The position numbers were made by a program, and so were the translations under genes. From Brachycybe producta (taxonomy: Eukaryota > Arthropoda > Diplopoda > Playtdesmida > Andrognathidae), in contig JAUPFP010000007.1 in the NCBI GenBank assembly GCA_036925085.1, positions 2,034,302 through 2,098,301 on the forward strand: a stretch of 64,000 bases of DNA, read 5' to 3'. A model generated the notes under the pieces. It was not told the origin of the DNA and made no database searches. It saw nothing but the letters and a program-made list of their open reading frames with translations. Of the stretch, positions 2,602 to 52,785 are shown in pieces (within the stretch, counting starts at the first letter, position 1; each line of letters begins with the position of its first letter).

Positions 2602-2746
2602 GCAAAACATGAGAGATAAGAAAAAAACAAACCTATTTTATACTATTAGTCTTCGTCTCGCCATTGTTATATAATGTACCTAAGATATTGATTGTTATTA
2701 TATTTAGAAAAATAAGTTTGAGAATTTCCTACTGAGTACAATAATA

Positions 2747-4012
2747 ATGGCAGAAATGGCTGACAAATTAATCACTGATGAAATGAGCACACCAGAAGAA
2801 AAAATGGGACCTCGTGTAGGCGTCTCCATTACTCTGGAAGGTGTTCAAAAAGTAGTCAGTCACCACTTACCAGGTGTCAAGTGTCTCAAATTCAAGTACG
2901 TTCACCGCGGTTTCAATAATCGAATTTACATACTGGAACTTAGTGATGAATCTGAAGTGGTTCTTCGTCTTGGTGGTCTAGGTTGGGACAAGTGGAAAAC
3001 AGTTAATGAAGTGGCATGTTTGACTCTATTAAAAAATCGTTGTTCGGAAGTTCCTGTACCGAAAGTTCTTTTCTACTCTTGTGACAAAACTCTCATCGGA
3101 TTCGAATATATTTGTATGGAACGGATGCCTGGAACGCCTTTAGATGAATTGTGGCCCTCGATGAACGATGAACAACGACGTCACTTTTTAGATCAATTGG
3201 CAACATGTTTAGCCAGTATTAAGAAAGTTACTTTTGACAAAATTGGTCACTTAGCTTTTGAGAATGCAGATTTAGGAATTCTTCCGAAAGTAGAAGACAT
3301 TTATCTTACCTGTGTACTAGAACTCAATGAATTCGGCCCATTTAAAACGTATCGTGAGTTCTTGAAGGTCCATTATGAAGTGAGCTTGATACACCTAATG
3401 GAACATCCATTTTTCGAATCATTGAGATATTTTGAACCTAGAATTCGATCATTTATATCACATTATATGTCAGAAGATCGTCAGAGTTCGGCAGAACTTC
3501 AAGAAGAAGATTCTTTGGAACGGGCCATTCGTTCGTACTCACCTATCGTATTGTCACATTACGATCTGGAACCTCGTAACATTCTTGTCGATAAAGATAA
3601 CTACAACATCACGGCCATTTTGGACTGGGAATTTTCTGGAGCTTTTCCGGCTGACGAGGACTGGTTTGTTGGTTTTGAGTTCATCAATGCTAATACATCA
3701 GAGAACATTTATAATAGTTCGGAACTGAAAGACGTACATATGATTTCAACACCTAAAAGCGAAGAACCGGAAATATATGAACTAAGACAATATTTCTTCA
3801 AGAAACTTCAGGATTTGAATGTCTTTCATCCAAAATCTTTATCAGAAAATGAAATTCATGAACATAAAGCTCGATTATACCTGATGAAGGAGAACATTGC
3901 ACCTTGGCATCTTCGATTTCCGGATCGTAGTACTGTTCCGGATGATGCTTATGCGTGGAGAACGGAAAATGAAATGATAATAGCTAAGATTTTAGAAAAA
4001 TACAAATTTTAA
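2747..4012 (+). CDS. APH-fold (aminoglycoside phosphotransferase/choline kinase-like) kinase
   Basis: An uninterrupted 421-residue frame, about the usual length for APH-like small-molecule kinases. N-lobe: residues 54-77 (RGFNNRIYILEL, then VVLRLGG) fit the nucleotide-binding strands, with a helix around E88. The hinge is near residues 119-136 (FEYICMERMPGTPLDELW). The catalytic loop is HYDLEPRNIL at 271-280, giving the family pattern HxDxxxxN (H271, D273, N278). It is followed by ILDWEFSG at 291-298, where D293 is the metal-binding aspartate. All key residues are present, so the enzyme looks active and is probably cytosolic; no signal peptide or membrane segment is seen. The substrate cannot be told from sequence, since members phosphorylate hydroxyls on diverse small molecules. 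A second in-frame ATG follows at 2756; I took the first. No intron interrupts it, unusual for an animal gene and suggestive of a retrocopy or old acquisition. No neighbouring gene gives functional context. Confidence 0.92.
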   Translation: MAEMADKLITDEMSTPEEKMGPRVGVSITLEGVQKVVSHHLPGVKCLKFKYVHRGFNNRIYILELSDESEVVLRLGGLGWDKWKTVNEVACLTLLKNRCSEVPVPKVLFYSCDKTLIGFEYICMERMPGTPLDELWPSMNDEQRRHFLDQLATCLASIKKVTFDKIGHLAFENADLGILPKVEDIYLTCVLELNEFGPFKTYREFLKVHYEVSLIHLMEHPFFESLRYFEPRIRSFISHYMSEDRQSSAELQEEDSLERAIRSYSPIVLSHYDLEPRNILVDKDNYNITAILDWEFSGAFPADEDWFVGFEFINANTSENIYNSSELKDVHMISTPKSEEPEIYELRQYFFKKLQDLNVFHPKSLSENEIHEHKARLYLMKENIAPWHLRFPDRSTVPDDAYAWRTENEMIIAKILEKYKF

Positions 4013-42398: not shown

Positions 42399-42932
42399 GT
42401 GGGGTAACCCGTCATAAATGACGTGGGTAACCATTCATATATGATGGGACATTCTAGTTTAACTATTTTATTCAAATACTGAAGGTTACTCAATGAAGGA
42501 CGTTTCCATCTCCCCTCTCCCCCACCACCCTCACGTGTGTTTACTTAAAGGTTTTTGTTCATGTGTTCTTACAGCGTTACATGCAGACAGACAGACTTGG
42601 CTTAATTATTATATATAATATCCCAGTCTGTGTGTGTAGAGTAACATCGGAATTTATATAAATTTGAATAAATGAAGAAATGAACAGCTTTTTTTTTCTC
42701 AAGGTCAACTTTATGTTGCACCCTTCCCATCCAAGAACCCCATGATATTAAATTGGAGAGGAGAAAGGTTGGAAAATGTAGAGGGAGGGAGAGAGAAAGA
42801 GAAACGTGGAGAGGAAAAAAAGTGAGAGGGGGTGACTGAAATTGAAATGAAAGTAAAAAAAGGAACAAACGATGCGCATGCGCACAATTGCCTATGAATT
42901 TTGCTCCCGTCATTTATGACGGGTTACCCCAC
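42399..42932. mobile_element. Family A TA-flanked MITE, full copy A1
   Basis: The termini are GTGGGGTAACCCGTCATAAA then TGACG, and the reverse complement, flanked by TA at 42397-42398 and 42933-42934. Each terminus contains a small palindrome CCGTCATAAATGACGG (imperfect on the left). The right half is shared with A2 and A3. It is non-coding; the frame at 42602-42913 is chance. Confidence 0.85.
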
Positions 42933-42944
42933 TAGTATATATAT

Positions 42945-44628
42945 TAGGGTGGAGCTTAGGGAATAGTGAAAATGTAATATTATGATTTTTAAATGTCTTA
43001 CACCTCTATGTTGTTCCTTTTATTCTTAAAGCACTACACAAAAAGTTTGAATAACAAATATTTATATTTAGAAGTAGCTCAAGTGCTTCAAAGTTTAAAA
43101 CATGCGTTAGTATTGTGTTACATTTACTGAATTAAAAATGAAAACTGAGATTTTGTTGCAAGTAGCACTTTAATTGCAGCAATCACCAATAATATTATAA
43201 ACTGCAAAATTATTATCTATTGTCCAAGAATGTCTGCCAATGTTTATGTTTTAGGTTTAATTCATAGCCTCTGCCAAAGTCTGTTTCCTGCTGTCTGGGA
43301 ATGCTCGATGGTGCTCTTCAACAACCTGCAGCAAGAACTGGAGCTGCGATTCATCACGTGTCATGAGACCACTGAACTCTTATATGAGTGTGACTCCACG
43401 TTCTGCATGATCATTGACCACCTTCAAAGCTTGCACTGTCTCCTAGGCCTGCTTGAAACCATCTTGTTCATCCCACTCATCTGGATCCACGGAGAGAAAT
43501 TCGTTGGGCAGCTCCATCAGTTCAAATAGTTTGTTTGAATTTGTACTGGCAAAGACTTCCAGGCTCTTGCCATTGAAGGTGTCCAGTTCGACATTGATGC
43601 ACTTTGCCTGGTTTGGAGTCCCTTCCTGCTCCAGAGCCTTCACCATCAGCCTCTTTGTTGCTGAACTAACCTGACTCGAAGAAAGCCAGGCCAACGAGAT
43701 CTTCAGACAAATACCACAAGTGGTTAGGCAGCTTGGCTGATGTGGCCTTTGAGATAGCAGGATGAATTGCTGAGTACTGCAAGAGGGACTTCAGGAGCAA
43801 CATGTCATTGTGTGGAGCACTTGCAGCCAGTGGTGCAGTCATCCACGCCTTCAGGTATACACGAAAAACAAACACACACATGTGAAGCAGGCCATTTTCC
43901 TCTCGTGGAGTCAGTTTAAACTGGGACTGGTACATCCAGACCTTCAGAGAATAGATTACCTTCGACATCTAGCGGGCATGATGCATGGGCCCGGGTGACA
44001 TGAAGTGCACACCTCTAGTAGGAGCTGCACCAAGAAAGATGATTGCTAACTCCAGGAATTCTTTGTAATCATCCCTTGGCTGATTCTGCTCTAATTGCTT
44101 GAAGGCAAACTCGATGACACTCTCCCGAATTTCTTTCGCAAGACCAGCCACATCATCACTTGCAATGCCTGTTTGGTACTTGTCTTTGTCAACCAATCCC
44201 CAGTGTTCCTGGACATGCTTGAATAGTTGAACCCCAGGAGAGGATGTTGGTTCCAAACAAACATGGAATGCAGCACCAATGATGAGTTCCAATATGTGAT
44301 TAATTAATATTGCTCGAAATGCTCTTAAAAAATTGATGATGCTTTTTTAAGGCATCTGGATTTTTAAGCCCTTTGCTGACTGGTATACAATGTACATTTG
44401 TGATATTTGTGACAATACAATCTATTACTAAATGTCTGAATGATATTACACAGTTTTTATCCATTGACTACAGCTTGTCAAGTACCAGAAACCTCAGCAT
44501 CATTGAGCTATCCCTAAATATTGTCCAATTGTGTTCATATTTTTTGTGAATTTTTAATTCATATATTGGAACAAAATGAGGGGGTAAGAAAATCAAATTT
44601 AAAAACTTAAAAAATAAGCTCCACCCTA
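42945..44628 (-). mobile_element. 1.7-kb TIR DNA transposon with degraded transposase-like gene
   Basis: The ends are TAGGGTGGAGCTTA and its exact reverse complement TAAGCTCCACCCTA (14 bp). The flanks are alternating AT on both sides; duplications of 2, 4, 6 or 8 bp (up to ATATATAT) are all compatible, so the superfamily cannot be fixed from the TSD. Its interior carries the broken frame 43257-44292 on the - strand, the only coding content. It lies exactly between two family A ends pointing away from it. Confidence 0.85.
43257..44292 (-). pseudogene. Broken transposase-like gene of the 1.7-kb TIR element
   Basis: Three - strand frames join into one protein remnant of about 345 codons. Frame one (44292 down) runs to an amber codon at 43969-43971, where the context MHHAR(stop)MSKVIYSLKVW suggests a lost Trp. 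It continues in frame to about 43680, where a one-base shift moves it to the 43694-43443 frame. Two more stops follow in place, TAG at 43443-43445 and TAA at 43380-43382, before the final TAA at 43257-43259. Distinctive blocks are RDDYKEFLELAIIFLGAAP, SQFKLTPREENGL, VYLKAWMTAPLAASAP, HLWYLSEDLVGLAFF and VVNDHAERGVTLI. I recall similar repeated proteins in cnidarians and arthropods without a named function. Residues well conserved in such copies cannot be assigned as catalytic here. The frame is open upstream to about 44350, so the true start or a splice site may lie there. Transposase is inferred only from its place inside the TIRs. Confidence 0.75.
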
Positions 44629-44640
44629 ATATATATACTA

Positions 44641-44840
44641 GTGGGGTAACCCGTCATAAATGACGGGAACAAAATTCACAGGCAATTGTGCGCATGCCTG
44701 TCGTTTTTTCCTTTTTTTCCTTCTTTCATTTCAATTTTCGTCACCCCCTCCCACTTTTCTCTTTCCCCCACAGAGACACAGAGACACAGACCTGGCAAAA
44801 TATATATATAATATAATTATAATTATTAATGCTCTCTGGT
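44641..44840. mobile_element. Family A MITE, partial copy A3
   Basis: It begins GTGGGGTAACCCGTCATAAA then TGACGGGAACAAAATTCACA, preceded by TA. It continues with GGCAATTGTGCGCATGCCTG and TTTCATTTCAATTTTCGTCA, matching the right half of A1 in reverse. It fades near 44840 in an AT-rich TATAATATAATTAT run; the far terminus is missing. Confidence 0.78.
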
Positions 44841-51943: not shown

Positions 51944-52785
51944 ATCAATTCAATTCAATTCAATTAAATACACCTGCAATCAGCTCGAAAGCCATATTGC
52001 AGGGAGGGATTGCTCCCAATCACGACTGATTGCCATTATTTAAAAATAAGACATCATCATGAAATTGAAATCGTCCTAACAAAGAACTATTCACAGGAAG
52101 AGAATTCCATAGTCTAATAACATTAGGAAGAAAAGACCAAAAATATGCATCAGTCCTAGCCATTAATTCTTTGAAAGTTTTTGAATGCCCGAATCTACCT
52201 TTACGAGGATTTCTAGTTAGTAAACCATTAAGCAGGGTAATGTTATTACAAGACAGCAAACGTCCCAGAAGAGCGAGGCTTTGCTCATTTCTTCGGCCTG
52301 CTAATGATTCCCATTCTAATTCTTGGAGCATAGACGATACGCTGTCAGTATACGCATACCGTCCCTTTACAAATCTTGCAGCCCTACGCTGCACCATTTC
52401 TATTTCTTGTTTTAGATTATTTCTAAATGGGTTCCAAATTGGGGAACAATATTCTAAGATAGGTCTAACTAGGGTAAAGTAACAGACCTTCTTTACATTT
52501 TCTTTGCAATGTTTAAGTGTGCGTTGGACAAACCGCAGCCTTTGATTAGCTTTGGCAACTGCTTTGGTTATATGATCTTTCCAAAGCATGTCCTTGGACA
52601 AGGTTAAGCCAAGATATTTGATGGTATCAACATGGGTTTGACTATGTAAAGAGTCAATTGATAGGTGGTGTGTTGCTAGTGTAAGGGGAAGTATAGAAAA
52701 TGCGTATCTACGAATAGGTGTAACTCGAATCCGTGTAAGTGGAGGACTTACTGTATTCAATTTGGTGCCACTATTTTTTGTATTC
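51944..52785 (-). mobile_element. 5'-truncated non-LTR retrotransposon
   Basis: On the - strand it comprises the C-terminal part of a reverse transcriptase frame, a short 3' UTR (GCAATATGGCTTTCGAGCTG, GATTGCAGGTGTATTTAATT) and a tail of tandem TTGAA units at 51944-51966. A short tandem 3' tail instead of poly-A is typical of the CR1/L2 group. The 5' edge abuts the family G repeat at about 52781. Confidence 0.82.
52020..52760 (-). pseudogene. C-terminal reverse transcriptase fragment (CR1/L2/Jockey-type)
   Basis: An open frame of 246 codons. It encodes the thumb and C-terminal region that follows the catalytic palm in non-LTR reverse transcriptases. Markers are HVDTIKYLGLTLSKDMLWKDH (split as TIKYLGLTLSKDM and LWKDH), VRPILEYCSPIWNP, QRRAARFV and FWSFLPNVIRLWNSLP. 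The palm with its (F/Y)xDD box and the upstream endonuclease are absent, as in normal 5' truncation during target-primed insertion. The frame has no internal stop and ends at what looks like the natural stop, so insertion is relatively recent. It cannot work alone. The first ~35 residues are weakly conserved and the start is only the first codon of the open stretch. Confidence 0.88.

Follow-up and report, generated by a model that had tools for sequence, protein, structure and literature searches.

The locus and its surroundings

The analysed stretch of Brachycybe producta DNA, 64,000 nucleotides long (C7:2034302-2098301 of the assembly) and referred to below as the window, carries at 42945..44628 a decayed, non-autonomous element of 1684 bp, with its gene on the minus strand. 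Two 14-bp terminal inverted repeats (TIRs) bound the element: TAGGGTGGAGCTTA, on the plus strand at 42945..42958, forms the 3' end in gene sense, and its exact reverse complement at 44615..44628 (minus strand) forms the 5' end. The initial annotation had described a compact TIR transposon with 14-bp TIRs at this place, a description borne out by TIRs that are exact at both ends and occur paired at five loci. Elsewhere in the window, a 434-aa open frame at 2708-4012 (plus strand) matches the phosphotransferase family APH (PF01636, E 4e-21), and a 254-aa open frame at 52020-52784 (minus strand) looks, by eye, like the C-terminal region of a reverse transcriptase of the LINE type; the latter frame had no Pfam match at E values up to 0.01.

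The element is flanked by a probable target site duplication (TSD), ATATATAT, at 42937..42944 on the left and 44629..44636 on the right. As this sequence is a TA-repeat, it is uninformative by itself and was left out of the TSD count (discussed later). Around the element, the inverted repeat extends beyond 14 bp, with a 108-bp arm at 94%. As a candidate for the element's TIR, this long repeat was ruled out: its outer arms, at 42795..42944 (plus strand) and 44629..44765 (minus strand), belong to a separate repeat of higher copy number, recognized by similarity to other genome sites, and have many matches at places that hold no window-type element. Because the arms occur elsewhere without it, the element begins at the 14-bp TIR, and it is inserted into the TA-rich center of an older palindromic repeat. 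The arms of that repeat, which end in ACCCCACTAGT and contain the inner palindrome CCCGTCATTTATGACGGG, have dozens of matches in the genome.

A transposase remnant occupies 43272..44298 on the minus strand and, as judged by tblastn, open reading frames, and alignment, is homologous to amino acids 388-734 of P0001, the protein of an intact relative. The initial annotation had spoken of a single degraded gene. Degraded it is: a TAG at 43969-43971 stands in place of the tryptophan that relatives have in their RWxS motif, and the frame changes near 43669-43700. What is present, however, is not a whole gene but the C-terminal half of a protein that in P0001 has 736 aa.

Other copies of the window family

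Searching the host genome with the TIRs was a check suggested in the initial annotation. The 295-Mb assembly contains the 14-mer TAGGGTGGAGCTTA at 13 places (seven forward, six reverse) and the reversed control at three. Ten of the 13 form five inward-facing pairs, and three are single ends. Four of these pairs, the window's included, enclose elements of 1684-1690 bp, and the fifth encloses one of 2857 bp. The four two-ended copies outside the window lie at different sites with different flanks, each with its own 8-bp duplication (CTATGCAT, ATGTTGAT, and CTGTACGG, and, with one mismatch, CTGTGTAC/GTGTGTAC). In the 2857-bp copy, on contig C3, two aligned parts meet at query positions 582-587 around approximately 1.2 kb of extra DNA; as this copy has the same deletion junction plus an internal insertion, it is not the undeleted form. 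A further long copy, on C10, has one exact end only. At the DNA level, copies that are full or long are 95-98% identical to the window stretch, and the fragments on C20 are 92% identical to it.

When P0001 was compared with the window by tblastn, the match covered only aa 388-734, and in five other copies (L009, L010, L012, L013, and L015) its start likewise fell at aa 387-389. None of the six window-family copies compared has the N-terminal half of the protein, and no undeleted form was found among the five exact TAGGGTGGAGCTTA pairs. All six are thus without the N-terminal domain and both putative catalytic aspartates. The window family is, then, a non-autonomous deletion family. A single junction common to six copies suggests that the family spread as a deletion derivative, which would need transposase made elsewhere.

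Intact relatives in the same genome

The initial annotation had raised the prospect of intact relatives inside the same TIRs elsewhere; such relatives are present in this genome, with closely similar TIRs (TAGGGTGGTCCTT) and an open frame of 759 codons. A protein search of the genome with a 100-aa block from the window gave at least 150 matches (290 candidates, of which 150 were scored). Beyond the window family, identity among the matches listed was 57-58% at best and 42% at its weakest, and 11 of the 150 listed lie in a 759-codon frame (counted by eye). One intact relative, at C3:9191020-9193800, is 2781 bp long; its single long open frame (178-2457) measures 759 codons from stop to stop and encodes 753 aa from the first methionine; P0001 comprises 736 aa of this frame, the first 23 codons being left out. 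For the 13-bp TIR TAGGGTGGTCCTT, the assembly contains 212 exact ends, compared with one for the control. The first 100 of these 212 ends include 20 pairs that face each other at no more than 4 kb; of the 20, 19 span 2767-2782 bp, and one spans 2211 bp.

Twenty-two other fetched loci, which were the best protein matches from the top of the list and several of which have gaps or missing parts, are 98.4-99.8% identical to the reference copy L061 in the parts that align. This near-identity of the 2781-bp copies points to recent spread. The window element and the 2781-bp element have common termini (73% over 129 bp at the 5' end) and a homologous protein. A more diverged pair of relatives, L097 and L098, have broken frames; between P0001 and L097, the differences at the three codon positions are 0.43, 0.26, and 0.61 (425 codons; protein identity 51%), a distribution that would be expected of a gene under selection.

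With paired TIRs, TSDs, dispersed copies, and an intact gene, these elements are class II TIR DNA transposons, and the gene product is presumably the transposase of the TIR family. Had the window copy alone been available, truncated as it is and lacking both aspartates (D1 and D2), one might have thought of a Pack-TIR, that is, a fragment of a host gene captured by an unrelated TIR element, whose protein is not a transposase. We regard such a capture as very improbable: the space between the related TIRs of the 2781-bp element is taken up by the 759-codon frame, and a frame of this length recurs in the listed protein matches noted above, within a TIR family of near-identical copies.

Several other kinds of copies appeared in the same search. 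A 133-aa open frame was counted by eye in 72 of the 150 listed matches, many at equal score (e.g., C2:444758-445054, C2:650866-651162, and C1:5893353-5893649). These three examples have a TAGGGTGGTCCTT end 1205 bp upstream of the match, as against approximately 1746 bp in the full element, and no second exact TAGGGTGGTCCTT end nearby among the ends listed; copies with the 133-aa frame apparently form a further family derived by internal deletion. Of the 72, at least C3:6166823 is instead full-length and contains a stop. Four of the listed matches lie in giant open frames of 1857-3463 aa, that of L064 adjoining an N stretch.

The 2781-bp element also has a subterminal inverted repeat: ATATTTAGGGGTAGCTCAATGAAT lies 108 bp from one end, and an inverted version that differs at one position lies 121 bp from the opposite end, a match of 23/24 that was equaled in none of 100 shuffles. 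In the window, ATATTTAGGGATAGCTCAAT on the 5' side (44502..44521, minus strand) is similar to this repeat, and ATATTTAGAAGTAGCTCAA on the 3' side (43064..43082, plus strand) is inverted relative to ATATTTAGGGATAGCTCAAT. When the six window-family copies were put through the same shuffle test, between four and 62 of 100 shuffles equaled the best pair; the subterminal motif pair was the best pair only in L015 (14 of 100 shuffles), a different pair being best in the other five. As the window motif does not rise above shuffles, its identification rests on resemblance to the 2781-bp relative.

Target site duplications

For TSDs, whose comparison had likewise been suggested in the initial annotation, both ends were looked for in 25 copies, of which 20 belong to the intact family and five to the window family. 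For three of these, no 5' end was found, and five of the 22 two-ended copies, the window's among them, were dropped for TA-repeat flanks, leaving 17 informative copies. Duplications were present in 16 of the 17, 13 of them exact and three with one mismatch, the sole miss being L063; by the same rule, 7 of 272 mismatched left-right pairs scored as a TSD. After two TA-repeat cases (L057 and L075) were left out, 14 TSDs were scorable. In the 3' flank of L075, the copy at C106:272466, a TA repeat separates the element's 3' end from a second TIR end that points toward it, which suggests that two elements inserted next to each other in a single TA-rich site.

The 14 scorable duplications all differ in sequence, and they are of two lengths: eight are 8 bp and six are 9 bp. 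All four from the window family, one with a mismatch, are 8 bp long; the 10 from the intact 2781-bp family comprise four of 8 bp and six of 9 bp. Where the two copies mismatch, in two of the 14, the left copy was taken for the following base counts. Counting from the left, T is found at position 2 in 12/14, G at position 3 in 11/14, and T at position 4 in 12/14; counting from the right, A is found at position 2 (n-1) in 12/14 and C at position 3 in 10/14. T2 and A(n-1) occur together in 11 of the 14. The 8-bp duplications have T2 in 8/8 and A7 in 7/8, and the 9-bp duplications have T2 in 4/6 and A(n-1) in 5/6. The target sites are palindromic and ATGT(N)ACAY-like.

The predicted transposase

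Inspection of P0001 by eye revealed D291 in HWDGK, D356 in CFDTTSSNTG, a CxxH at 385-388, RW at 499-500 in RWMSK, and E691 in NDNAERGVAL. The spacings are 65 residues from D1 to D2, 32 from D2 to H, 112 from H to W, and 335 from D2 to E. The ordered pattern D-D-CxxH-RWxS-ER is present in P0001 and in three of 20,000 shuffles of it, although the shuffle result is no strict test, since the pattern was written after the protein had been seen.

The initial annotation could name no family for this protein, and the database searches agree. P0001 had no match in Pfam at E values up to 10, nor in NCBIfam and PHROGs at E values up to 1. The hATC dimerization domain, PF05699, was found neither in P0001 (Pfam, E up to 10) nor in L097, L098, or L015; as a positive control, Pfam found this domain in Hermes with an E value of 4.1e-25. 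There was also no sign of a BED zinc finger, as residues 1-270 of P0001 contain no CxxC and gave no Pfam match; those of the N-terminal codons left out of P0001 that were inspected contain no cysteine. A number of weak hits were set aside as being at chance level: (i) Herpes_U44 (E 0.036) and SGTA_dimer (E 0.068), matched in Pfam by a window piece, and SCO1-SenC and UPF0542, matched by L097/L098, all under curated cut-offs; and (ii) among PDB sequences, thioredoxins (E 0.015) and others with a window piece, and two chains (E 0.12 and 0.73) with P0001. Alignment A2 had no match among PDB sequences. Pattern-based scans of GTDB genomes and IMG/VR with P0001 or alignment A4 found no relatives; a degenerate pattern matched 55 stretches there, with a best profile E-value of 0.76. 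AlphaFold, run on L097 with eight further rows, returned a mean pLDDT of 37, and the model is therefore used for no claim. In the literature searched, we found no description of the protein or the TIR (PMC3706591, PMC4763223, PMC5753468, PMC8961557, PMC3942097), an absence that is not proof.

Comparison with hAT and other superfamilies

According to the initial annotation, the gene did not match hAT motifs. The intact relative does not bear this out as stated, since it has D, D, CxxH, RWxS, and ER in the order seen in the hAT transposase Hermes, together with TAGGG ends and TSDs of 8-9 bp that mostly have T2 and A(n-1); the truncation of the window copy hides D1 and D2. P0001 and Hermes, whose catalytic residues are D180, D248, and E572, are near to one another in two spacings (Hermes vs. 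P0001: D1-D2, 68 vs. 65 residues; D2-E, 324 vs. 335) and apart in two others (D2-H, 20 vs. 32; H-W, 51 vs. 112). An element start of TAGGG is hAT-like, and these elements have it.

Other comparisons rest on published descriptions. H268, W182, and W319 are noted in Hermes, and the CxxH, W182, W319, and an insertion domain are given as features of Hermes and Kat1 (PMC4763223). Short TIRs of 10-25 bp are described for hAT elements (PMC8961557, PMC3942097), a range that includes the 14 bp of the window family and the 13 bp of the intact family; so is a length of 2.5-5 kb (PMC3942097), and the intact element measures 2.78 kb. The hAT TSD is approximately 8 bp (PMC3942097, PMC8961557), compared with the 8 bp in 8/14 and 9 bp in 6/14 found here. 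Finally, the target consensus of the Ac family, nTnnnnAn (PMC8961557), is matched at T2 and at A(n-1), each in 12/14.

These likenesses, a 13-14 bp TIR, 2.78-kb length, and approximately 8-bp TSD that fit the hAT description (PMC3942097, PMC8961557), together with the TAGGG ends, would also suit a hAT member that Repbase or Dfam already lists under a hAT name and that is merely absent from Pfam. We think this unlikely, in view of the missing PF05699 match, the 9-bp TSDs, and the outcome of profile comparison. An hhalign comparison of the P0001-family profile with Hermes placed the best local match at the CxxH, in register, but its score of 19.0 is not significant, being reached by nine of 100 shuffled Hermes sequences and exceeded by reversed Hermes (19.6). 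As judged from the sequences, then, the similarity to hAT is at the level of motifs only.

Merlin target duplications are 8-9 bp, and in its mixture of 8- and 9-bp duplications the intact family is like Merlin; P0001 is unlike Merlin in having no Pfam transposase match and 335 residues between D2 and E. The Kolobok target is TTAA, which was found in 0/14 scorable TSDs here. Dada, Kolobok, P, and MuDR are DDE superfamilies with a C/DxxH motif (PMC3706591), and they resemble the P0001 family both in having C/DxxH after the second D and in their long target duplications (4-10 bp). Dada elements have 6-7 bp TSDs in small-RNA genes, and no TIRs were found in the U6 families (PMC3706591), whereas the elements described here have TIRs of 13-14 bp and TSDs of 8-9 bp. 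No P or MuDR transposase domain of Pfam was found in P0001.

A reading compatible with our main conclusion is that the group is a separate, undescribed DDE superfamily, outside hAT, with its own N-terminal domain and 8/9-bp TSDs; we consider it possible, if on balance doubtful. Equally tentative is the corollary that its likeness to hAT would lie in a CxxH-type RNase H core common to hAT, P, MuDR, Kolobok, and Dada. The lack of any family match to P0001 in Pfam (E up to 10) and in NCBIfam or PHROGs (E up to 1), the failure to find BED or hATC, a Hermes profile score not above shuffles, and the mixed lengths of the TSDs all speak for separation; against it, RWxS, ER, and the nTnnnnAn-like target are hAT-like, and deep branches of hAT could have lost detectable BED and hATC.

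Discussion

We conclude that the window element is probably a defunct copy, with an internal deletion, of a cut-and-paste TIR transposon that has intact relatives with a predicted DDE transposase. The group is apparently an undescribed, recently active, hAT-like group of DDE transposons. Recent activity of the intact family is suggested by the identity of its copies, and the DDE assignment and catalysis are predicted from the sequence of the intact protein.

We postulate that the intact relatives encode a single DDE-type transposase, for which the 13-14 bp TIRs and the subterminal inverted repeats of approximately 24 bp are presumably the binding sites. By way of these, the transposase would pair both ends of the element and then excise it; excision may be hAT-like, forming hairpins on the flanking DNA. 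Insertion of the excised element would take place at palindromic, ATGT(N)ACAY-like sites, where it would be joined to staggered cuts spaced by 8 or 9 bp. Copies without D1 and D2, the window's included, would have been moved in trans.

A stronger proposal, which we offer tentatively and as somewhat less likely to be right than wrong, is that this is an undescribed, recently active superfamily of eukaryotic DDE transposons, whose N-terminal domain is new and whose strand-transfer complex tolerates spacings of 8 as well as 9 bp at palindromic ATGT(N)ACAY targets. Such proteins would probably be widespread in invertebrates as 'uncharacterized protein'; similar unnamed repeated proteins probably occur in aphids, spiders, and Hydra, and the initial annotation likewise mentioned some in other invertebrates. 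Were the group a separate superfamily, it would add to the approximately 20 that are recognized (PMC3706591), and it would give a name to repeated proteins that are now unnamed in annotation. With an intact gene, near-identical copies, and defined ends, subterminal repeats, and targets, the family is directly testable for transposition, and its mixed 8- and 9-bp duplications, occurring as they do within a near-identical family, would bear on how rigid the cut spacing of a transposase dimer is.
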